Below, piece after piece: positions 7,472 through 20,422 of a DNA stretch of 64,000 nt. The notes beneath the pieces are model-generated. The model was not told the origin of the DNA, did no database searches, and worked only from the letters and a program-made list of their open reading frames with translations. The stretch lies in NCBI RefSeq assembly GCF_001678665.1, contig NZ_LZRP01000007.1, positions 1-64,000 of the forward strand. The letters run 5' to 3'. The first letter of the stretch is position 1. Every line of letters begins with the position of its first letter. Source of the DNA: Erythrobacter sp. QSSC1-22B. GTDB taxonomy: Bacteria > Pseudomonadota > Alphaproteobacteria > Sphingomonadales > Sphingomonadaceae. Made by a program: the position numbers and the translations under genes.

Positions 7472-7701
7472 GACATACTTTCCACGCTGGTCATACGCAT
7501 GATTGTCGGGATGGGTTCCTGCGATAGCTGAAGATAATCGAACTTGGCGCGCTGGACAAAGCTAGCACGCAGCGGGGTGCAACGATATCAAACCCGACAA
7601 GTTGTGGCCTAAAATATTCCCTCGACCCGAATTAATTCTTCCCCCAAGCCGGTTTGCCGCGCCATTTTGGCTCCGAATAGAAAAGCCCGGCGCACGGCTT
7701 A

Positions 7702-8660
7702 GAGCCTGATCCGAAATTAAGTTGAGCGGTGTCAGCGGGTTAGCTTGACGCCAGCCCAGGTCGCTGATTCTGAGGTTTTGCAACGAACCAAGGAAATCAA
7801 CGATGTGGACCGACACCACTCGGGCGCAGTATGCTCGTGCGCAGCTGACTTTGCCAAGCGATTTGACCGATGCCGAATGGACGGTGCTGGAGCCGTTCTT
7901 CCCGCCGCCTTCGCATGTGGGGCGTCCTCGCAAATGGCCACAGCGGCGGATTGTCGAAGCGATCCTGTATCTGCTGCGCGGCGGCTTGCCGTGGCGAATG
8001 CTGCCGCCGTGCTTTCCGCCGGTCTCGACGGTGCGGCGCTGGTTTTATCTCTGGCGTGATCAGGGGCTGTGGCTCTCGCTCAATCACGCCCTGCTTTTGA
8101 TCGGACGGGAAGCGGTGGGTCGCGAGGCCTCCCCGAGTGCCGGGGTTATCGATAGCCAAAGCGTCAAAACCACCGAGAGCGGCGGGCCGCAGGGTTACGA
8201 TGCGGGCAAGAAGATTAAGGGCCGCAAGCGCCACATCGTGACCGACACCGATGGCAATCTGGTTCATGCCGTGATCCACACCGCCGACATCCAGGATCGC
8301 GACGGCGCACCGCTCGTGCTCGCCGAGATCATCCGGCGCTTCCCGTGGCTGCGGCATGTCTTCGCCGATGGCGGATACGCCGGTGACAAGCTGCGGCAGG
8401 CGCTGCGCAAGATCGGCAAGAGCAGGTGGACCATCGAAATCATCAAGCGGTCCGACACCGCCAAGGGCTTCGAGGTGCTACCGCGGCGCTGGGTGGTAGA
8501 GCGAACCTTCGCATGGCTCGGTCGCAACCGACGCCTCGCCAAGGACTTCGAGCAGACCATCGCCTCGGCAACCGCATGGCTGTTCATCGCCTCGATCCAA
8601 CTCTTCGCACGACGCATCGCAAGATTATGAAATCACGCCGGATAATTATGAATCAGACTC
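7702..8660 (+). mobile_element. Complete IS5-family insertion sequence (959 bp)
   Basis: The ends are imperfect inverted repeats: GAGCCTGATCCGAAATT at 7702 and, reading inward from the right end, GAGTCTGATTCATAATT at 8660. The element is flanked on both sides by TTA (7699-7701 and 8661-8663), the TNA-type target duplication of IS1031/IS427-like members of the IS5 family. It contains one intact transposase gene in a single frame. The intact ends, gene and duplication imply a recent insertion that may still be mobile. Confidence 0.9.
7803..8630 (+). CDS. IS5-family transposase
   Basis: A 275-residue DDE transposase. The N-terminal part (about 20-95) has the LTDAEWTVLEPFFP and RRIVEAILYLLRGGLPWRML segments of the IS5 DUF4096 domain. 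The catalytic Asp residues are in GVIDSQSVK and FADGGYAG, and the Glu is in the VVERTFAWLGRNRRLAKDFE stretch. AAGGAAA precedes ATG 7803. Unlike IS427-type elements it needs no programmed frameshift. It sits inside the TTA-flanked element. Confidence 0.93.
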   Translation: MWTDTTRAQYARAQLTLPSDLTDAEWTVLEPFFPPPSHVGRPRKWPQRRIVEAILYLLRGGLPWRMLPPCFPPVSTVRRWFYLWRDQGLWLSLNHALLLIGREAVGREASPSAGVIDSQSVKTTESGGPQGYDAGKKIKGRKRHIVTDTDGNLVHAVIHTADIQDRDGAPLVLAEIIRRFPWLRHVFADGGYAGDKLRQALRKIGKSRWTIEIIKRSDTAKGFEVLPRRWVVERTFAWLGRNRRLAKDFEQTIASATAWLFIASIQLFARRIARL

Positions 8661-8704
8661 TTATTTTCCAATGAGAACAATGAGTTTTAAGCCGCAGAAT
8701 AGTA

Positions 8705-8872
8705 ATTAGACGCCAGCGCGTCCTTTCTGAATTCGGTGATTTCGCCCTGCGATGCGGCGACCTTCAGGAGGTTTTGGGCAAGGCCTGCCGCCTCGTCGGC
8801 GAGGCGCTCGACACCGAGCTCTCCGAGTTGGTCGTCCGTTATGGGCACCGAACTCAAGCTCGTGTTTCCTGA
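8705..8872 (+). pseudogene. Remnant of a GAF sensor kinase N-terminus
   Basis: From about 8708 to 8838 the plus strand reads RRQRVLSEFGDFALR, then a QEVLGKACRLVGEAL segment. This matches the first GAF helices of the intact kinase at 6143-7471 (FGELALR and TESCRLVGEGL). There is no start codon in frame, and TGA follows at 8870-8872. It begins only 42 bp after the IS5 element. From 8873 to 9052 I see nothing I can assign. Confidence 0.65.
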
Positions 8873-9052
8873 TCCGACACAAGAGCCCCTTCCAGCCGTA
8901 AGCGGCCTGACCTCTCTCCACCAGACCGTGCCGTTCAGCGATACGCGGTTTCCGCTCATGGAGCTTCTAAGCCGCCCGACCGGTATTGGGACCCGCATTT
9001 CGGCGTCGGAACGGCCGGGTTTAGGGCGCAATCCAGACGTTCCTGGGCGCGC

Positions 9053-9307
9053 CTAATCATCACCCTCGACCAGCCCACCGCGCGGCTCCCGTCTCCCGTC
9101 AACGAGCCGGCGCAAACTGGCCGTCAGCACTAGCGTCGAGCTACCCAGTTTAATGATCTCCACCTCCCCTTTGGCAATGAGCACATAGAGTGTGCTGCGC
9201 CCAATCCCGAGATAGCGGCAGGCGTCCGGTACGCGCATCGTAATCGGCTCGACGGTAGGCCGTCGATCCTGTCCACGGAGATGCTCGGTGCGGTTTGGAG
9301 AGGGCAT
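9053..9307 (-). CDS. AlpA/excisionase-like helix-turn-helix protein
   Basis: About 84 residues from ATG 9307, which has AAAGGA at a suitable distance. The core reads MRVPDACRYLGIGRSTLYVLIAKGEVEIIKLGS spread over residues 23-55, a winged-helix HTH_17 fold as in AlpA-type regulators and phage or plasmid excisionases. Such proteins usually bind DNA to control integrase genes or excision. No integrase is nearby, so it may be a leftover of an integrated element. The C-terminal tail is rich in Arg and Gly. Confidence 0.7.
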   Translation of the reverse strand: MPSPNRTEHLRGQDRRPTVEPITMRVPDACRYLGIGRSTLYVLIAKGEVEIIKLGSSTLVLTASLRRLVDGRREPRGGLVEGDD

Positions 9308-9871
9308 CGGACCGGTCCTTTCATCTGTCGGGTGATGACGGACCGGCCTGGGCTGGGGAGGGGACCATGACCGGCCCGCCATCGACGCGAGTATCGGTCA
9401 TAGCTGGCCCCCATCGCCACATGACGTTCGTACGCCAGGTCCGCCGATTTCACGACGTGATCGCGACGATCGAAATCCTTCGCGGGTTTCGGATCTTTAG
9501 AGGTACCTGCGAACCCGAAGGGACGGCCGTTTCAACAATTCCAAAAGCGCTCTCGGATCGAAATTGTCCGAAAGACGTCGCTTCAACGATTGGAAACAAG
9601 AGCAAATTTAGGATGACCGACGGCTGAGCGTTTTGAGCGCCGTCGCCAATTGCTCAACAAATCCAACCACATGCAGCCCGACAGACGGCGCTGCTTTTAT
9701 CTCGCCATCCACTTTCTCATCCAAATCAGACACTTACGGACGTTTCATACTAATTCACATCAGCCGCAACAAGCATGCAGATCGGGTGCAGCAAGAGCGC
9801 AGCACCGTTGTTCGAGGATCGCGGCCTCCGCGAGTCGGTGATGACGCTCCGCATGCAGAACCTCGGCATCG
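9308..9871. other. Gene-poor stretch between HTH gene and the split SRAP gene
   Basis: Several short open frames run across both strands here, but none has a recognisable domain or a good start. A hairpin-like repeat (GACGGC and GCCGTC, about 9620-9643) is visible. The right half is lower in GC than the flanks. I read it as decayed or foreign sequence with no assignable function. Confidence 0.4.
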
Positions 9872-10166
9872 CTACCAGCGCTGATCCGTGCGTTCGATTG
9901 CAAGTTCGCCGGTCCATGGATTGCACAGGCGGCGCGCTTCGGGCGGCGTACCATCGGTCCAATTCGACCAGTCATCCTGCGCCAGCAGAACCGGCATGCG
10001 CGAATGACATTCTGCAGCAGCACCTGCACTCTCGGTCATGACTGTAGCGCGACGATCTGGATGAGAAGCCGCATTGCCTCACCTGATTTGCTCCCGTCGA
10101 TAGGGCTGTTGCCTCATCTAGAATGCTCCCGAGAACGGTTGGGAGTGAGTGATGAGGAAAGTGAGT

Positions 10167-11693
10167 ATGGCGACGCGTAGGGAGTTGGTGGAGGCGGTCG
10201 GGGAACGGTACCGATCGGCTGATCGAGGGAGCAAGGGACGTGTTCTCGACGAGTTCGTGGCGGTGACGGGATTTCACCGCAAGCATGCGATGCGGTTATT
10301 GCGGGCGAGCCGCCCGGCAAAGGCACAAGGGCCACGCGTCGAGCGTCGTATTTACGACGAGGCGGTAAGGATCGCGCTGGTGACGCTATGGGAGGCGTCG
10401 GACCGGTTGTGCGGCAAGCGGCTGCGCCCGCTCATTCCGATCCTGCTGGAGGCGATGAAACGCCATGGGCATCTGGACCTGGCACCGGATATAAGCACCA
10501 AGCTGACCACGATGAGTGCGGCAACGATCGACCGGGCGCTTCGTGATGTGAAGGCAGCCGGTCGTGTGCCGAAGCGGCGGGGCGTTGCCGGGACAGCGCT
10601 CCGGCGGAGTGTGCCGATCAGGACGTTCGACGATTGGGGCGATCCGGCACCGGGCCATATCGAGGCGGACCTCGTCTCGCACAGTGGCCCGGTAGCGAAG
10701 GGCAGCTTTGCGTGGACATTCACGCTGACCGACATTGCGACCGGATGGACCGAGTGCGCCCCCCTCCTGGTGCGCGAACAGACGTTGCTGGTCGCGGTGC
10801 TCGACGAGCTGCGCAAGTCGATGCCCTTCGAGCTGCTGGGATTCGACACAGACAACGACAGCGTCTTCATCAACGAGACGGTGCGTGATTACTGCGCGTC
10901 CAGCGGCATCGCCTTCACCCGTTGCCGGCCTTACCGCAAGAACGATCAGGCGTGGGTTGAGCAGAAGAACGGATCGGTGGTGCGCCGGCTGGTCGGCTAT
11001 CGTCGCTTCGAAGGACTGGACGCCGCCGTTGCCTTGGCCGATCTGTACGCGGCGGCGCGCCTGTTCGTGAACTTCTTCCAGCCCTCGTTCAAGCTCGCCG
11101 AGAAGCACCGGGACGGCGCCCGGGTGCACAAACGCTATCATGCGCCTGCAACGCCGTACCAGCGGCTGTTCGACGATCCGCGAACCCACGATGCTACCCG
11201 GGCGCATTTGCGCCAGGTCTTTGCCGGGCTCGATCCGGTCCGGCTGTTGCGCGATATCAGGGCTGCGCAGCAGCGGCTGGTTGCCCTCGCTGACGCGCCG
11301 AGCCCGTCGCTGGTGAGTGAGCAACCGGCCCCGCCGCCACTGGAGACGTTTCTGTCCAGCCTGCGAACGGTGTGGCAGAGCGGCGATGCTCGACCGACAG
11401 CCTCCGACAAGCCACGACAGAAGCGCGGGCGTCGTCGTCCCGATCCTTTGATTGAGGTGACCGGGCAGTTGAAGCGCTGGTTCGAGGAGGAGCCGTGGCG
11501 TACTGGCAGGGACCTGCTCGAAAAGCTGCAGGTCGAGAGGCCCGGCGATTATCCCGACGGTCTGTTGCGCACGGTTCAACGCCGCCTGAAGATCTGGCGA
11601 TCCGAGCAGGCCTGTGCGCTCGTGTTCACCCGTTCGTCCATTGCGTCCGCGTCCCCCGCCGGAATAGCCTCGCAGACGAGGGCCGAAGGTTGA
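10167..11693 (+). CDS. Transposase with integrase catalytic core
   Basis: About 508 residues from ATG 10167, preceded by GAGGAAAG; an in-frame ATG also exists at 10149. An N-terminal helix-turn-helix region (about 1-45, with GFHRKHAMRLL) precedes an rve-type catalytic core. Candidate catalytic acids are the Asp in HIEADLVSHSG, the Asp in FDTDNDS and the Glu in QAWVEQKNGSV. The C-terminal third is basic and variable. It is the only gene of the element and shares its orientation. It interrupts the SRAP gene, which runs on the opposite strand. Confidence 0.88.
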   Translation: MATRRELVEAVGERYRSADRGSKGRVLDEFVAVTGFHRKHAMRLLRASRPAKAQGPRVERRIYDEAVRIALVTLWEASDRLCGKRLRPLIPILLEAMKRHGHLDLAPDISTKLTTMSAATIDRALRDVKAAGRVPKRRGVAGTALRRSVPIRTFDDWGDPAPGHIEADLVSHSGPVAKGSFAWTFTLTDIATGWTECAPLLVREQTLLVAVLDELRKSMPFELLGFDTDNDSVFINETVRDYCASSGIAFTRCRPYRKNDQAWVEQKNGSVVRRLVGYRRFEGLDAAVALADLYAAARLFVNFFQPSFKLAEKHRDGARVHKRYHAPATPYQRLFDDPRTHDATRAHLRQVFAGLDPVRLLRDIRAAQQRLVALADAPSPSLVSEQPAPPPLETFLSSLRTVWQSGDARPTASDKPRQKRGRRRPDPLIEVTGQLKRWFEEEPWRTGRDLLEKLQVERPGDYPDGLLRTVQRRLKIWRSEQACALVFTRSSIASASPAGIASQTRAEG

Positions 11694-11747
11694 TGGGGGT
11701 ACTGCACCGCTCCGCCTGCGGCTCCGCTGCGCAGCACCCCCATCAAC
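11689..11747 (+). terminator. Long hairpin after the transposase stop
   Basis: GTTGATGGGGGT at 11689 pairs with ACCCCCATCAAC ending at 11747. The stem extends inward through CTGC/GCAG with one mismatch, around a loop of about 25 bases. It overlaps the transposase stop codon and lacks a T tract. It could limit read-through or be a structural part of the element's right end. Confidence 0.45.
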
Positions 11748-12370
11748 CGGAGAATGGACCCAATCGACCGATCGACGTAGGGAGCACTTGGGTGAGGCAA
11801 CGCCATCACCGTTCGGGAACATCTTCTCGTGAGGCAACACGCGCTCGCATCCTGATTGTCGCGCTGCACATGACCATGGTGTAGACCAGACCCCATTCGT
11901 CGCTGTTGCGCCATAGCCCGCCAACTGCAAACAACTCGGCATCGGGGCGGTAGAGCCAGGTGCGCGTCTTGCTGCCCGGCTTGCCTTCGGCTTCTGCCCA
12001 AGCCATCAGCGGAATGAGGCAACGACGTTCCTCGAAGCTGTAGCGCCACATGTACCCGTCGAGCTTGTCGGCGCGCGCATTGTTAACAGGCTTCGGCTTC
12101 AACGGTTCGCCCGTGCGCTTGCTTTTGAGTGTTAACGGGAAGCCCCATGTCATCTGCTGGAGCTTGCCATCCGCGAAGACTGCGCCGGGATATCCCGGAA
12201 ACACCTCGTCGCCAAAGTTGGCGTTGCCGAGATGATCGATCGCGCCGAACCAGCGTGCGACCTCATCCTGGGCCTTGGTCATGCGGTAGAGATTACACAT
12301 CAAAGAGAGCTGCCCGGAGCGCTCTCGGGTGTCAATCGACAGCGTGCCAGTGGAAAACTGTTGGCATTAA

Positions 12371-12385
12371 GTTCCTGTTATGTTC
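12371..12385 (+). promoter_or_regulatory. LexA box (SOS operator)
   Basis: GTTCCTGTTATGTTC is a perfect GTTC-N7-GTTC direct repeat, the alphaproteobacterial LexA recognition form. It lies between the divergent SRAP gene (start 12300) and the small gene starting at 12391, only 5 bp before the latter. It would place both under SOS control. The match is exact, and the genomic context (SRAP) fits. Confidence 0.8.
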
Positions 12386-12390
12386 TAACG

Positions 12391-12646
12391 ATGAAGATGA
12401 TGATTCGACCCGATGACGACGAACTGACGCGAGCGATCGAGATCGCGTTGCTGACGGCAAAGACGTACGCCATTCGCGACGTATTTACTGCAACCCGAGC
12501 GCTTAACCGGCGGGTTGCGGTCGACACGCTGACAGCACGCATCGTGGCAGCGCTTCGGCCCTATGAGATCCTGCGCGAGGCAAAGGGATGCGGATCTGGC
12601 CGAGAAAACGTTGCCGCTGTTCCCCGACTTCGAAGCAAGAAATTAG
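12391..12646 (+). pseudogene. Small SOS-linked gene, frameshifted
   Basis: From ATG 12391 the frame reads an acidic start (MIRPDDDELTRAIEIALLTA), then VAALRPYEILREAKG near 12585. The expected ending DADLAEKTLPLFPDFEARN and a TAG at 12644 lie in the next frame, so one extra base near 12585-12590 has shifted it. Read straight, the frame instead runs on without clear homology to 12750. Small proteins with this acidic start and an LPLFPDFE ending sit next to SRAP genes in related bacteria as far as I recall; no function is known to me. Confidence 0.55.
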
Positions 12647-12730
12647 CGTCGCGACAGGATTCTGGGACGGTCCTGTGCAAGAAGAGGCCTCACAAAGTAG
12701 TCCCAAAACCGCCCTGCAACATCTTGAATA

Positions 12731-13669
12731 TTACTGTTTGTCCAGCCTAGCCAACGCCTCGGCTTCGAGCTTTTCGAGACGCTCGGAACATACTCCGTGA
12801 ACCACGCGGCCAAGCTCCTCAACCTGCTCACCGAGCCATTCGAGCTCTTCCTTCGTGATGCGGTAATGCTTCGAATAGCGCGCCTTCACATAAGCGTCTT
12901 TGAGCTTCTCGAAGCGGGCGCGGTCGCGCTTCGTCTCGTTTGGCCAGACGTAAGTGAGTCGCGGATCGATGCGCTCGGCTTGGGTGCGCAGGAAGCCGAG
13001 ATTGTGTACGTGCGGCGTGTAAAATGTGCAGACGAGCAGTACACAGTGATAAAGGCGTTCGGTTGCCTGATGCAGCATGAAGGCCGCATCCTTGTTCCAC
13101 TCGCGGGCTAAGTCATCGCCAAAGTTGACGTGGGCGCGCATCGCGCTTGGATACCACTCATTAAAATACTCCTGCGCCATGGCGAGCGCTTGTGTCGGAG
13201 TCTTCGGCTTGGGCGTATGCAACTCGGTATCGTCGGACTGGTAGACCGCGATTCCTTCCTGCTTCACATCCATGAAGAAGTAGCGGCCATGTGCCAGCCC
13301 GTCGTTCACCTCCTGGAGGGTGTGGACGATGAAATTGACCGGGGTCTTTAGCGTACCGGTTACGCCATACTCACGCATTAGCCGCTCATCGAGCTTGGCC
13401 CAGTACTTCACTCTGTCGGTCAGCCGCTTGTGGTTCACGATGATCAGCAGATCAAAATCCGACTGGTAGCCCTTGGCGGTATGCGGCTCGTCGACCCAGG
13501 TGCCGCGCGCATAGCTGCCGTAGAGAATAATCTTGAGGATGCGCCCGGCTTTCTTCCACTCGTGCTTGGCAAGCGCGAAGGCGTCGTCGAATTCCTCGAA
13601 CATCAGCTGCACCACGCGTTCCATCTCGCGCTGCTTTTGTGGAGGTAGGTGATCGAAATCGGTTCTCAT
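12731..13669 (-). CDS. Nucleotidyltransferase-HEPN fusion protein
   Basis: About 312 residues from ATG 13669; the open frame extends upstream to 13807 but that part looks non-coding. The first half is a minimal nucleotidyltransferase with GSYARG, then SDFDLLII, the GS...DxD metal-binding signature. The second half (about residues 175-300) is a helical HEPN-like domain containing ARYSKHYRIT and lacking a canonical Rx4-6H RNase motif. Separate MNT/HEPN pairs form toxin-antitoxin modules; here both are fused in one chain. The substrate is unknown, and nucleotidylation of a protein or tRNA is possible. It stands alone in the accessory region. Confidence 0.8.
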   Translation of the reverse strand: MRTDFDHLPPQKQREMERVVQLMFEEFDDAFALAKHEWKKAGRILKIILYGSYARGTWVDEPHTAKGYQSDFDLLIIVNHKRLTDRVKYWAKLDERLMREYGVTGTLKTPVNFIVHTLQEVNDGLAHGRYFFMDVKQEGIAVYQSDDTELHTPKPKTPTQALAMAQEYFNEWYPSAMRAHVNFGDDLAREWNKDAAFMLHQATERLYHCVLLVCTFYTPHVHNLGFLRTQAERIDPRLTYVWPNETKRDRARFEKLKDAYVKARYSKHYRITKEELEWLGEQVEELGRVVHGVCSERLEKLEAEALARLDKQ

Positions 13670-14052
13670 CACCAAGCATCTAGCGAGTTGCTCGAATTGT
13701 TGCACCTGTCGATCACTCTTGATCCTCATTGCCGGTTCGCAACGCATCGTTGATCCAGACTCGCGGGTTCGCGTCAATACCAAGAACTGGGGAGGGGCGC
13801 ATTTCACGTCGCGTGTGAGAGCATTGCACGCTAGTCAGCAACGATGATCGACAGTGTCTCGAGCTGGAGTTAGCCCTGTCTCGACTGCGCTGAGGAAGGC
13901 CCAAAAGTGCGCTCAAATTTGCGCTCGAAGTTCAGTTTTTTGGCAAAAAGGTGAACCGAACACCCCTTATATGAACGAAAGTGTGGGGAAGAGTGTGGGG
14001 GAGGGATTCAGCTAATTCTGAGAACAGAATTGATTTCAAAAGATTAATTTAT
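13670..14052. other. AT-richer intergenic stretch with GTGTGGGG repeats
   Basis: No gene is visible. Around 13981-14002 the sequence has two close copies of AGTGTGGGG. The same nonamer recurs at about 20694, beyond the B12 cluster. Base composition is lower in GC than the flanking core. Confidence 0.4.
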
Positions 14053-14078
14053 TAGTTCGAATCAAGCCCTGCCACCAC
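14053..14078 (+). repeat. tRNA 3'-end-like fragment, candidate attachment site
   Basis: The bases AGTTCGAATC, then AAGCCCTGCCACCA, resemble a T-loop followed by an acceptor strand and CCA. The upstream part of a tRNA is absent and the T stem does not pair well. Such fragments are left when an element integrates into a tRNA 3' end. No intact tRNA with the same end is in this window. Confidence 0.35.
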
Positions 14079-14315
14079 TTGCCCTTCCCGAAGCATACAC
14101 TGAAATCCCGAGAAGCAGCCTCGGCTCCGGAGGTGCTTGCGAAGGCAGACGCCTTCCGGATCGAGGGGGCCGAGGTGGTCTGTCCCGGCGTTGCGAGCAA
14201 CCCAATGTCCGCCATGACGCTGCTCAAAGGGGCGCGCGATATGAGTGAGGACGCGCCTTCAAGAGTGCGCAGCGCGGGACAGAGCGCATGGACAACCTTC
14301 GGCGGACTGATCTGA
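14079..14315 (+). other. Unrecognised open frame, possibly a gene remnant
   Basis: An open frame of 78 codons with high GC includes ADAFRIEGAEVVCPGVASN and ends at TGA 14313. It has no start signal that I trust and no domain I recognise. The opposite strand is also open across it. It directly precedes the dipeptidase remnant in another frame, so both may belong to one decayed segment. Confidence 0.3.
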
Positions 14316-14530
14316 TGCAGGGTCTTGAAGACATCGCTGCGCTGCCGGTGGTGACGCCACGTCTGCATGAGGTCGGCTACAGTCGCGAAGGCCTTGAAAA
14401 GGTGACCAGCGGCAATTTCCTGAAGCTCATGCGCGCGGCGCAAGCGGCGCTCGAACGCCAGGCCTGCCGATCCGACGCCGCATCGGCCATCCCAGACCGG
14501 CTCAGATCGGCAGTTCGTTGCTCGACTTGA
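14288..14530 (+). pseudogene. C-terminal remnant of an M19 membrane dipeptidase
   Basis: The frame reads GLEDIAALPVVTPRLHEVGY, then SREGLEKVTSGNFLKLMRAA. This matches the last 45 residues of renal/membrane dipeptidases (peptidase M19; GLEDxxxLPxLTxxLxxRGY ... GNFLRV). The catalytic zinc-binding part is absent. The frame then runs into the convergent Lrp gene and stops at 14528-14530. It is interpreted as what is left after deletion at the edge of the accessory region. Confidence 0.6.
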
Positions 14531-14963
14531 TCTGCGACAGCGCGACGGTCGAGTTGATCTCCTGCACCCCGGGCAGCTTGCTCAGGCAGTCGAAGAAAAA
14601 CCGTTCATAGGCGTCGATGTCCTCGGCCACGATGCGCAGCATGAAGTCGGTCGTGCCCATAAGAACATAGGCATCCAGAACCTCTGGAAAGGCCCCGATC
14701 GCGGCGCTGAATTCATCGAGATTCGCGCGACCATGCGCGTTGAGCTTCACCTGCGCGAAGATGTGCGCGTTCAGCCCGACCGCGCGCCGGTCAACGAGCG
14801 CCACATGGCCAAGGATTATCCCGTCGCGTTCCATCCGCGCAATCCGTCGCCAGCAAGGCGAGGGCGACAGGCCGACTTTCTCGGCGATCTCCGCCGTCGT
14901 CTGTTTGGCATCGCGCTGAAGCTCGCGGAGAATTTTCTTCTCGTAATCGTCCAGGGCGGTCAA
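14502..14963 (-). CDS. Lrp/AsnC-family transcriptional regulator
   Basis: About 153 residues. The start is TTG 14963, with GGAG about 6 bp upstream; longer in-frame starts would add implausible sequence. Residues 3-60 form the AsnC-type HTH (DDYEKKILRELQRDAK, IAEKVGLSPSPCWRRIARME). The C-terminal part is the RAM ligand-binding domain (AYVLMGTTDFMLRIVAEDIDAYERFF). It is transcribed divergently from the amino-acid dehydrogenase gene, with 124 bp between starts, and probably controls it in response to an amino acid such as leucine (inference). Confidence 0.9.
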   Translation of the reverse strand: MTALDDYEKKILRELQRDAKQTTAEIAEKVGLSPSPCWRRIARMERDGIILGHVALVDRRAVGLNAHIFAQVKLNAHGRANLDEFSAAIGAFPEVLDAYVLMGTTDFMLRIVAEDIDAYERFFFDCLSKLPGVQEINSTVALSQIKSSNELPI

Positions 14964-14985
14964 ATTATTCTCCAAGCTGGATAAT

Positions 14986-15011
14986 GGAGGAAAATATAAC
15001 CGAAAACCTCC
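14986..15011. promoter_or_regulatory. Inverted repeat in the lrp-dehydrogenase intergenic region
   Basis: GGAGG (14986-14990) and CCTCC (15007-15011) enclose an A-rich centre in the space between the divergent Lrp-type gene and the dehydrogenase. This is a plausible operator or overlapping promoter for the regulator. The match to a known Lrp site is not strong. Confidence 0.35.
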
Positions 15012-16393: not shown

Positions 16394-16604
16394 TTCGAGG
16401 ATGGAGGCGTCCGGTGCGCAAGCCCTGTCCGTCAATTGCCTCTCCCAGCGCCTGCACCGATTCCCTACAAATCTTGGAGATCCCAGCGCTTCCCCCAGGC
16501 CGGATTGCGAAAAACCGGCGTGGCGCCCAGCAAGATCCGACCGTGTCTGTTGCAACTCTGCACGCCGTTTGATAGCGGCGTCCCACCGGGTCGACTTGCG
16601 GCCC

Positions 16605-16800
16605 GGTAAAGCGCGCCGGTAACGGGAATGCAGTGCGCTCGGCCATGCCGGGCAAATCTGCAGCTGACCCTGCAACTGTAAGCGGTGAGCACGATGTGCA
16701 CGCGGATCGGAGACGGTCTGCAGCCACTGGATGGCCGGGCGAATGCCGGGCCGCTGGGAAGGCGCCCATCGTGTGACGACCCGCGAGCCAGGAGACCGAC
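16605..16800 (+). ncRNA. Cobalamin riboswitch
   Basis: The conserved blocks appear in order: CCGGTAACGGGAATGCAGTG (near 16615), GACCCTGCAACTGTAAGCGG (16667-16687), the B12 box GCCACTGG (16723-16730), GCTGGGAAGGC (16753-16763) and GAGCCAGGAGACC (16785-16797). This is the adenosylcobalamin-binding aptamer. The following 190 nt up to the GTG start of the receptor gene are GC-rich and can form hairpins, so they probably hold the expression platform. Coenzyme B12 should repress the downstream uptake genes. Confidence 0.95.
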
Positions 16801-16992
16801 CGATGCGTGTCGCTCTTGCCGGGTCCATGGGACTGACCGGGCGCGAAACCGAATTCGTCTGAGCGACGAACGTGCGGCTGGGGCCGCATCGGACACAACC
16901 GGCGGCCGCTCACGCGTCCGGGCGCCGGTGATGGCCGACCGTTCGCGCGGACGCCCCGGTCATGTCGCTCGACGCCGGGAAAGTCTTGTCTC

Positions 16993-18927
16993 GTGAATAA
17001 CCACATCCTCATACCTGCCGCGCTGTGCGCGGCCTGCATCGCTGCGCCCGCAATTGCGCAAACCAGCCTCGCCGATCGGTCGTCCGTCGACGCCAATGTA
17101 ATCGTCATCACCGGCACCCGATCGGGCGATGCGATCCGCGTCGACCAGCATGGCGCGGCGATCACCACGCTCGACGCCGAAGCCCTCGAGCAGCGCCAGA
17201 CCCGCAGCGTCTCCGACGCTCTGCGCGACGTCCCGGGGGTCGCGGTCAGCCGGATCGCGGGCCAGACGCAGGTCCGGCTGCGAGGCAGCGAGGCCAACCA
17301 CGTTCTCGTGCTCATCGACGGCATTGAGGCCTCCGATCCCTATTCGGGCGAGTTCGATTTCGGCACTTTGCCCGCCGATGCGGCGGCTCGGGTCGAGATC
17401 GTGCGCGGGCAGCAAAGCGCGATCTACGGTTCCGACGCGATCGGCGGTGTGATCCAGTATATCACGCTGACGGGCCGCGAGGCGCCGGGCTTCCGTGCCC
17501 GTTTCGAAGCCGGGTCCTTCGGCACCCTGAATGGTGCGGTGCGTGCCGCGGGTGTAGGGGGGAATCTGGACTATGCTCTGTCCGGCACGCTCAATACCAC
17601 CGCTGGGCCCTCCAACGCCCGCGCTGGCGGGCGCGACCTCAGAAGCGACACCGGCGCGGTGTCGCTCAAGAGCAGCTGGATACTGCGCCCCGAACTGCGC
17701 ATTACGGCCGTGGGCCGCTATGCGCTCTCGAATGCCGATTTCAACGACACCGACAACGACCCCACCAGCCCCAGCTTCGGGCTGATCGTCGACACACCAG
17801 GTGCCCGGGTCCGCAGCGAGGGCTTGTATGGATTGCTGCGCGGCGAACTCGATCTGTTCGACAATCGCTGGAGCCATGCGGTCACGGCCCAGATCGCGGA
17901 CACCGTGCGCGACGGGTTCAACGCCAGCGGCCGGAGCTATGGCAATGCCGGAACGCGGCAGAAGGGCTCCTATGAAACTACGCTGCGACTGGGCGAAGGC
18001 GATGTGCGCCATTTGCTGACTGCAGCTTTCGACGCCGAGCGTGAGCGCTATCGCAACACCGATCCCTCGGGATACGCCTTCACCGGTTCGCGCAGCAACG
18101 ACAATATCGGCCTTGTCGGCCAATACGAACTCCTGCTCGGCAACCGCGCCTCCCTGGGTGCCTCGATCCGCCATGACGACAACCAGCGCTTCGCTGGCTC
18201 CACCACCTATCGTGTCCAAGCGAGCTATCGCCTCGGAAACGATACGCGGTTGCGCGGCGCTGCCGGCTCGGGAGTAAAGAACCCGGGCTTCTACGAGCTG
18301 TTCGGATATGTCGACGGTCGCTACATCGGCAACGAGAACCTGCGCCCCGAACGCTCGCAAGGCTGGGAAGTCGGCGTCGAACAGTCGTTGAACGATGGCG
18401 CGGTCAATTTCGGCGCAACCTATTTCCAGAGCCGGCTCGAAGACGAGATCTTCACTGCCTACCCAGCACCCTCGTTCATCGCCACCCCCGCCAACAGCGA
18501 GGAGGCTTCGCGCCAGCGCGGGGTCGAGACCTATCTCAACGCTCGCCTCGGGCAGGCTTGGCGGATCGATGCCGCCTACACCTATCTCCATGCCCGCGAA
18601 GCCGGGCTGGAGGAAGTGCGGCGCCCACCGCACATCGCCAGCATTGCGGTCAGCTGGCGCGCTCCGGGCGACCGGCTCAGCCTGACCGGGGTCGCCCGCT
18701 ACAACGGCGAGACCGACGACCTCGCCTTTACGGATCCTTCCTACGTGCCGGTGCGCGAACGGCTCGACGATTATGTGCTCGTCAATCTGAATGCAGACTT
18801 CCGCCTCACCGAGGAAATCTCGCTCTTCGGCCGCGTCGAAAACCTCTTCGACGAGCGCTACGAGGATGTGTTCAGCTTCACCAATCCGGGCGTTTCGGCC
18901 TTCGTCGGCCTGCGCGCGCGAATTTGA
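16993..18927 (+). CDS. btuB: TonB-dependent cobalamin receptor
   Basis: A 644-residue outer-membrane receptor starting at GTG 16993. The signal peptide ends near AAPAIAQ (residue 23). A plug domain (about 35-150) contains VIVITGTR, the TonB-box-like segment, and VLVLIDGIEASDP. The beta-barrel follows and ends in ...FVGLRARI with a terminal hydrophobic/aromatic pattern. The size and the upstream cobalamin riboswitch identify it as BtuB-like. It imports vitamin B12 across the outer membrane using TonB energy. It is the first gene of a three-gene set. Confidence 0.92.
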   Translation: MNNHILIPAALCAACIAAPAIAQTSLADRSSVDANVIVITGTRSGDAIRVDQHGAAITTLDAEALEQRQTRSVSDALRDVPGVAVSRIAGQTQVRLRGSEANHVLVLIDGIEASDPYSGEFDFGTLPADAAARVEIVRGQQSAIYGSDAIGGVIQYITLTGREAPGFRARFEAGSFGTLNGAVRAAGVGGNLDYALSGTLNTTAGPSNARAGGRDLRSDTGAVSLKSSWILRPELRITAVGRYALSNADFNDTDNDPTSPSFGLIVDTPGARVRSEGLYGLLRGELDLFDNRWSHAVTAQIADTVRDGFNASGRSYGNAGTRQKGSYETTLRLGEGDVRHLLTAAFDAERERYRNTDPSGYAFTGSRSNDNIGLVGQYELLLGNRASLGASIRHDDNQRFAGSTTYRVQASYRLGNDTRLRGAAGSGVKNPGFYELFGYVDGRYIGNENLRPERSQGWEVGVEQSLNDGAVNFGATYFQSRLEDEIFTAYPAPSFIATPANSEEASRQRGVETYLNARLGQAWRIDAAYTYLHAREAGLEEVRRPPHIASIAVSWRAPGDRLSLTGVARYNGETDDLAFTDPSYVPVRERLDDYVLVNLNADFRLTEEISLFGRVENLFDERYEDVFSFTNPGVSAFVGLRARI

Positions 18928-18944
18928 TCCAGGAGATGGAAACC

Positions 18945-19493
18945 ATGAACGAGAACACCAAATTCGCCGCGGTCGGCTGGCCGCTCACATTGGCCGCAGC
19001 AGCGATCCTTGGCAGCCTGGCCCTGGCCTGCATGATGCCATTCGTCGCGCTTGCTACGCTTGCCGCGGTCACCATGTCGCGCGCGCAGGCAGTAATCACG
19101 GTGGCCGGCATCTGGGCGGTCAACCAGCTTATGGGTTTCGGGATGTTTGGCTACCCGCTCAACGCCTATGCGCTCGGCTGGGGGGCGGCGCTGGGCGCTG
19201 CGAGCATGGCAGCTCTGGTCGTCGCCCGCAGCTTCGCCGGGATCGCGCCGAGGGCGCTGCCGACCCCAATGCGGATTGCGGCTGCCTTCGGCCTCGCCTT
19301 CGTCTCCTATGAGGTGTTTTTGTTCGGCTTTGCGCTGGTCGCCGGTGGTACCGAGACCTTCACCGCCGCGATCGTTGGCCAGATCCTCGCCAATGACGCG
19401 CTTTGGCTAGTCGGACTCGGTCTGCTCTATACCGTCCTCCAACGCACCGCGCCAAACCTCTTCGGTCCGGCGCTCGCGCTGAGGCCGCGCTGA
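18945..19493 (+). CDS. Membrane protein of the B12-regulated operon, unknown function
   Basis: A 182-residue hydrophobic protein with five to six predicted membrane segments (about residues 10-40, 50-70, 75-100, 115-140, 145-170). ATG 18945 has AGGAG 9 bp upstream. I recognise no family motif. Its position behind the riboswitch, between the receptor and the binding protein and overlapping the latter by 1 bp, points to a role in cobalamin transport, perhaps as an inner-membrane importer related in size to ECF S-components (inference). No ATPase gene accompanies it. Confidence 0.75.
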   Translation: MNENTKFAAVGWPLTLAAAAILGSLALACMMPFVALATLAAVTMSRAQAVITVAGIWAVNQLMGFGMFGYPLNAYALGWGAALGAASMAALVVARSFAGIAPRALPTPMRIAAAFGLAFVSYEVFLFGFALVAGGTETFTAAIVGQILANDALWLVGLGLLYTVLQRTAPNLFGPALALRPR

Positions 19494-20422
19494 TGGCGAC
19501 GCCTCCCAGAGTCGTCTCGCTGCTCCCCAGCGCCACCGAAATCGCGGTGGCGGTGGGACTGGGCGAGCAATTGCTGGGTCGTTCGCACGAATGCGACTTC
19601 CCGCCCTTCGTCGCAGCACTTCCGGTGCTGACCTCGACCAAGCTGGAAAAGGGGCTGACTTCGCTGGAGATCGATCGCCGGGTTCAGGAAATCGTGCGCC
19701 TGGGGCTGTCCGTCTACGCCGTCGATGCCAATCGGCTGCGCGCGCTGAAGCCCGATGTCATCCTCACCCAGTCGCAATGCGCGGTCTGCGCGGTCACCCC
19801 CGCCGATCTCGAAGAGTCGCTGGCGGGATGGGTGGGTACCGCACCCACTTTGGTGTCGCTGGCTCCCGATGACCTGAGCGATGTCTGGGGGGATTTCGCC
19901 CGGGTGGGCGATGCCGTCGGGGCCCGCGCCGAAGCCGACCGCGCGGTCGCAGGCTTGCGCGAGCGGATGGACGGGCTCGCGAACCGGACCGCGCGGCGCG
20001 GGACACGACCGACTGTGTCCGCGATCGAGTGGGTTGACCCTCTGATGGCGGCCGGCAACTGGGTTCCCGATCTCATCGAGCTTGCCGGCGGCGAACCCCT
20101 GTTTGCGACGGCGGGGCAGCATTCGCCCTGGCTCGCATGGGATGCACTGCTGGCCGCCGATCCCGATGTCATTGTCATGATGCCCTGCGGCTACCAGATC
20201 CCCCAAACGCTGGCCGACCTTGCACCGCTGGTCGATCGGCCGGGCTGGGCCGATCTCTCTGCGGTGCGCGCTGGCCGGGTGTTCGTCGCCGACGGGCACC
20301 ATTTCTTCAACCGGCCCGGGCCGAGGCTTGTCGAATCCGCCGAAATCATCGCCGCATGCCTCGATGGTCTGCCACCGTCCGCCGATGAGCACCGATGGCT
20401 GGCGCTGCCGACGCGTGGTTAG
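19493..20422 (+). CDS. btuF: BtuF-like cobalamin-binding protein
   Basis: A 309-residue protein of the periplasmic-binding helical-backbone fold. It begins PPRVVSLLPSATEIAVAVGLGEQLLGRSHECDFP and later has CAVCAVTPADLEESL and EWVDPLMAAGNWVPDLIELAGG, typical of the BtuF-like cobalamin-binding family. ATG 19493 overlaps the stop of the membrane protein gene (TGATG). No signal peptide is visible at this start, so it may be cytosolic, as in several family members that lie beside B12 genes. It is in the riboswitch-controlled operon. Confidence 0.85.
   Translation: MATPPRVVSLLPSATEIAVAVGLGEQLLGRSHECDFPPFVAALPVLTSTKLEKGLTSLEIDRRVQEIVRLGLSVYAVDANRLRALKPDVILTQSQCAVCAVTPADLEESLAGWVGTAPTLVSLAPDDLSDVWGDFARVGDAVGARAEADRAVAGLRERMDGLANRTARRGTRPTVSAIEWVDPLMAAGNWVPDLIELAGGEPLFATAGQHSPWLAWDALLAADPDVIVMMPCGYQIPQTLADLAPLVDRPGWADLSAVRAGRVFVADGHHFFNRPGPRLVESAEIIAACLDGLPPSADEHRWLALPTRG

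Follow-up and report, generated by a model that had tools for sequence, protein, structure and literature searches.

Proteins of the SRAP family bind abasic sites in single-stranded DNA via a cross-link at Cys2. His160 and Glu105 of the YedK active site matter for cross-linking (PMC9436759), and SRAP is known to be carried by mobile DNA in the case of temperate phages, namely SPBc2 and prophages (PMC3765255). The 'srap' of strand-biased circularizing elements was set aside as a namesake, in that its description gives the name as SE-associated recombination auxiliary protein (PMC10214605). The gene studied here lies in a 64,000-nucleotide stretch of DNA from Erythrobacter sp. QSSC1-22B (the window; contig NZ_LZRP01000007.1) and shares with the SRAP/HMCES-YedK family (PF02586) the Cys2 residue, the NARAD, AEAEG and HSRMP stretches, and a Pfam match in both of its parts. 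It is distant from the solved members, with three PDB matches at E-values up to 0.001, the best being 2f20 at 9.7e-08 and none being named YedK. It differs further in its setting, apparently a mobile islet, and in its disruption by an insertion sequence (IS). As with the phage genes, SRAP would here be cargo of mobile DNA, and the SRAP protein of one relative (L008) matched PHROG family phrog_1599 in a PHROGs scan of five proteins.

CIMEs are decay products of ICEs and IMEs. The islet resembles cis-mobilizable elements and tRNA-borne genomic islands in its tRNA-3'-end-like border, its excisionase-type gene, a recent transfer between genera and the absence of a visible integrase of its own; it differs from them in showing no second att copy in the window and in having a nucleotidyltransferase-HEPN gene at the border. 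The MNT-HEPN toxin-antitoxin pair consists of two separate genes, whereas the islet protein has both domains in one gene; in fusions of this kind the RNase residues of the HEPN domain are typically missing (PMC3710099). The IS in turn shares with ISNCY elements and the IS1202 family a long transposase with an rve core and inverted ends. In the description of the IS1202 family (PMC10132070), transposases are 394-507 aa long, target duplications measure 3-5 or 16-28 bp or are absent, and a Q stands seven places after the catalytic E; the IS in the window has a 514-aa transposase, a 6-bp duplication and, by eye, a V after the presumed catalytic E. The signature residue (V for Q) and the 6-bp duplication placed it outside the IS1202 family.

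Insertion of an IS into an SRAP gene

The IS was tested for a transposase, terminal inverted repeats and a target duplication, and all three were found (Table 1). The inverted ends were imperfect; among 20,000 places drawn at random none gave a 40-nt inverted match better than 23/40, and equal 6-mers at the same spacing as the duplication occurred at 11 of 20,000 random places, so that both the inverted ends and a duplication at that spacing were unlikely by chance. CATGAC is common in the window (39 observed versus 34.73 expected), and its repetition counts as evidence only because the two copies abut the ends of the IS. The best match of the IS among plasmid records was on an Acidiphilium plasmid and was annotated as ISNCY family; two relatives of the IS carry this annotation. 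NCBIfam models for IS21 and IS481 matched the transposase below their cut-offs only. A second element in the window, of IS5 type (7692-8663, transposase 7803-8630), was 85% identical to one in Croceicoccus plasmids.

Table 1. Coordinates of the split SRAP gene, the IS and the surrounding islet in the window
Feature	Position	Strand	Evidence
HTH_17 excisionase-type gene	9053..9382	(-)	Pfam HTH_17 34.5 bits; NCBIfam 'excise' 31.5 bits, over cut-off
Conserved non-coding element between SRAP and HTH gene	9633..9741	(-)	blastn to other loci; 22-copy alignment
SRAP 3' part, codons 145-198 and stop, with HSRMP motif	9872..10036	(-)	Pfam PF02586 26.8 bits; frame continues 5' part
Target-site duplication copy 1, CATGAC	10037..10042	.	
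Insertion sequence, 1,826 bp, ISNCY-like	10043..11868	.	inverted ends 31/40; 81% relative annotated ISNCY family
Left inverted end of IS	10043..10082	(+)	
Transposase, 514 aa, rve domain	10149..11693	(+)	Pfam PF00665 33.5 bits
Right inverted end of IS	11829..11868	(-)	
SRAP 5' part, codons 1-144, with Cys2	11869..12300	(-)	Pfam PF02586 52 bits; joined reading 84.8-89.4% identical to L007-L011
Target-site duplication copy 2, CATGAC, counted within SRAP 5' part	11869..11874	.	
Small ORF divergent from SRAP, conserved in islet	12391..12747	(+)	53-71% identity, 63-86 residues, L007-L011 and L050
Nucleotidyltransferase-HEPN fusion gene	12734..13807	(-)	Pfam Polbeta 27.2, HEPN 25.3, NTP_transf_2 23.9 bits, each over cut-off
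tRNA-3'-end-like border of islet	14054..14077	(+)	similarity to L102, L108 ends at 14079, 14078; tRNA likeness by eye

The SRAP gene starts at 12300 on the minus strand and is cut after codon 144, with its last 54 codons and stop on the far side of the IS. Its 5' part exceeded the PF02586 cut-off of 27.1 bits, and the 3' part alone fell just short of it. The initial annotation had described an SRAP gene split by a complete element, and its placement of the gene parts, the IS and the CATGAC copies held. Its claim that one 198-codon frame with Cys2 and HSRMP is restored on excision was likewise borne out, as removal of the IS and one CATGAC left a single frame of 198 codons plus stop, free of internal stops and frameshifts, with the Cys2 start and the NARAD, AEAEG and HSRMP stretches. 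The active-site set of Cys2, Glu and His was present in this translation, the Glu being the residue that, by eye and by the family pattern, would fill that place; the HSRMP stretch aligned with HRMP of PDB 2f20. When the joined reading was compared by tblastn with close relatives, all 198 of 198 residues matched across exactly 594 bases and with no gap in each of the five intact ones (L007-L011: three Qipengyuania, one Croceicoccus and one Pelagerythrobacter). A sixth close relative (L050) has an SRAP gene with its own frameshift near codon 73. The joined flanks were colinear with all six loci, in alignments of one to four pieces, and no intact gene that mismatched across the junction was found among L007-L011 and L050.

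Taking these observations with those below, we consider it very probable that an accessory SRAP gene was hit, probably recently, by an ISNCY-like IS while being carried on a small islet that moves horizontally and is bordered by a tRNA-3'-end-like stretch, that the disrupted copy no longer works, and that two other copies maintain SRAP function. The CATGAC duplication would have been made at this insertion. The split protein would keep Cys2 and lack its C-terminal quarter, where the HSRMP histidine motif lies, so that this copy is most likely dead. By itself the split gene is ordinary, being one more IS in one accessory gene.

Age of the insertion

The insertion had been called proven recent by the initial annotation; we found it probably recent, supported by several measures rather than proved. 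The IS is present as a single copy in this genome, and its transposase was found in one of the 60 genus genomes, namely this one and none of the other 59. Between the joined SRAP and L008, dN was 0.064 and dS 0.674. To five outgroup sequences (L012, L013, L017, L022 and L024) the dN of the joined SRAP (0.207-0.230) was like that of the intact L008 gene (0.207-0.224). These values suggested that the gene was under purifying selection until lately, or nearly so. To L007 and L009-L011 there was a slight excess (0.083-0.093, versus 0.069-0.075 for intact L008), and amino-acid change in the joined SRAP thus appears at most slightly raised.

The alternative that the insertion is old, or that decay of the gene had set in by the time the IS arrived, draws on this excess and on the decay of SRAP copies elsewhere in these bacteria, where the strain's own copy on contig C5 is a fragment and those of L050 and L057 are frameshifted. 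It is improbable given 198 codons that contain neither stop nor frameshift, a dN to L008 that is small beside dS, outgroup distances equal to those of an intact gene, and a 6-bp duplication that is still exact.

Remaining SRAP copies

The initial annotation had also expected the pathway to be lost unless another copy existed. The proviso was the right one, and the expectation fell with it: a whole-genome Pfam search revealed two more open SRAP frames, one of 196 aa on contig C10 and one of 209 aa on C6, which exceed the Pfam cut-off at 87.1 and 84.6 bits respectively, together with the broken fragment on C5. The C6 gene was 66% identical to the split gene and follows ubiA, a gene that adjoins SRAP in 21 of the 51 relatives fetched. 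The C10 gene (L060:2992-6962) was about 30-33% identical to the split gene; it points away from a frame that matches nothing in Pfam and is presumably imuA, and next comes an imuB-like gene with an IMS domain. A relaxase gene lies on its other side, and this locus is perhaps on a plasmid. Of the label 'SOS-associated' in the initial annotation, the part that stood was the family name; none of the Pfam-scanned neighbours of the split gene was an SOS gene, though the C10 copy adjoins the imuB-like gene.

Since two open frames over the cut-off remain, one of them beside ubiA as in many relatives, the reading that the strain lost its SRAP pathway through this insertion is highly implausible, even with the gene split and its 3' part severed from the start. 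On the sequence comparisons, SRAP function should be kept through the C6 and C10 copies, which at these identities may not do the same job as the split one. The insertion is then a natural loss with two further copies left, which matters a little, and it cautions against inferring loss of the pathway from one broken SRAP gene.

The split gene belongs, by its sequence, to a rarer, accessory SRAP type. Although an SRAP match was found in 53 of 60 genus genomes, the 85-89% type occurred in four of them, this one and G041, G020 and G023. A branch (100/97) in a 49-row tree separated the C6 gene from the window gene together with the six islet SRAP genes; the tree held 45 of the 51 fetched relatives whole and L050 as its longer piece only, with L047, L052, L054, L055 and L057 left out.

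In the C5 copy (L062:5220-5690), the N-terminus is gone and a base was lost shortly after the conserved ATGACC, a few positions from the place that matches the IS target in the window. Further broken copies were seen in relatives, split in L055 (4321-7555) and frameshifted in L050 (6216) and L057 (6167-6183). In L055, a doubtful case of insertion, the intervening stretch holds a long unrelated frame.

The islet and its proposed mobility

The islet, rather than the split gene, is the interesting part of this region and deserves a separate look. In the window it comprises, in order, the tRNA-3'-end-like border, the nucleotidyltransferase-HEPN gene, the small ORF, SRAP, a conserved element of about 50 nt and the excisionase-type HTH gene. 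The nucleotidyltransferase-HEPN gene and the small ORF stood beside SRAP in all six islet relatives (L007-L011 and L050), the HTH match in five of the six (L009 gave none), and no such nucleotidyltransferase-HEPN gene was present in the compared flanks of the other 45 of the 51 fetched relatives. The small ORF had no family in Pfam, PADLOC, NCBIfam or PHROGs. SMODS matched the nucleotidyltransferase-HEPN protein at 25.4 bits, below cut-off. A defence role for the islet was considered and dropped, PADLOC giving only weak matches to this protein (24.2 and 17 bits) and none to the three other proteins scanned.

The conserved element contains CGCCGTC-type repeats. Where it lies beside the HTH gene, most copies have them in inverted orientation, imperfectly so in L007 and L009; in L106 and L139-L145 the repeats are direct. 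Its alignment comprised 22 copies, with L136, L137 and L146 (the same record as L007) left out. A plasmid search with the element gave one record, at 74.7%, and an Rfam search of 7500-15000 gave one match, elsewhere than at the element and at 20.6 bits against a gathering score of 60.

Compared with L102 or L108, the window was similar, the IS apart, from about 9113-9116 to 14078-14079. By eye, the minus strand at the right-hand border looks like a tRNA 3' end with CCA in reverse complement, and the same stretch occurs in L102, L104, L107 and L108. ARAGORN reported no whole tRNA at the islet border in the window; L007 and L009 carry a whole tRNA-Lys gene at the same islet end. A second, att-like copy of the border was absent from the window at up to three mismatches, the border itself aside, and three places elsewhere in the genome resembled it at three mismatches.

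One form of the islet has been transferred horizontally between two genera. L104:6892-13605 (Pelagerythrobacter aerophilus) and L107:8677-15390 (Q. citrea H150) share 6,714 bp with four mismatches (99.94% identity), against 82% identity between their rpsB-tsf-like control regions, named by eye. The shared block begins within a few bases of the tRNA-like border and extends beyond the HTH gene, taking in genes for a chromate transporter and a DUF1259 protein. L107 has another integrase gene whose end lies some ten bases short of the tRNA-like stretch, and in L104 the right end of the block runs into what by eye looks like IS DNA. Three integrase queries (from L096, L101 and L105) found no integrase inside the SRAP islets of L102, L104, L107, L108, L146, L007 and L009, and there was none among the window ORFs scanned with Pfam.

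The islet's nucleotidyltransferase-HEPN protein had matches in 108 of the 397 genomes searched in the family, many of which held several. We compared 46 such loci, a non-random set in which 43 were picked among the matches listed for score and genus spread and L107, L108 and L146 were added for carrying the SRAP type. An HTH gene lay downstream on the same strand in 15 of the 46, with none in the stretch compared in the other 31, and 13 of the 15 had the conserved element between the two genes, in one orientation in all 13. In eight others the element was on the other side of the gene. The DNA between the two end genes spanned about 0.7 to 6 kb and was mostly not alignable among the loci compared. 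An integrase was directly upstream in four of the 46, three of which had supplied the queries, and L130 had a 28% integrase match 0.9 kb upstream.

These patterns suggest that the loci form a family of integrative islets whose cargo is exchangeable; those that lack an integrase may be moved by others. Our tentative proposal is that sphingomonads harbour small islets, integrative or cis-mobilizable, of a family not yet described, with a border nucleotidyltransferase-HEPN gene, exchangeable cargo, the element of about 50 nt and an excisionase-type HTH gene, in which SRAP is one cargo. Its role for the islet is a matter of speculation; it perhaps protects islet single-stranded DNA in transfer. 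We found no description of such a family in open-licence papers. A competing view, to which we give similarly guarded credence, holds that the islet is not mobile in itself, that the shared block rode on a larger element or plasmid, and that the tRNA-like border is a coincidence. It would account for the missing integrase in the window and in L102, L104, L107 and L108, and for the IS-looking DNA that the block meets in L104. It sits less well with similarity that, in the window and these four loci, stops at the tRNA-like border or no more than about 13 bases from it, with the tRNA-Lys genes of L007 and L009, and with the upstream integrases. If the islet is indeed mobile, as we infer, it would tie gene transfer in sphingomonads to two proteins, one of the abasic-site kind and one of the nucleotidyltransferase-HEPN kind.

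The islet pattern was seen in the window (9053-14078) and in L096, L099-L102, L104, L105, L107, L108, L136-L138 and L146. The TonB-receptor region that adjoins the islet in the window (16604-20352) corresponds to L103:10442-14172, where it is flanked by the nucleotidyltransferase-HEPN gene on one side and the 50-nt element on the other.
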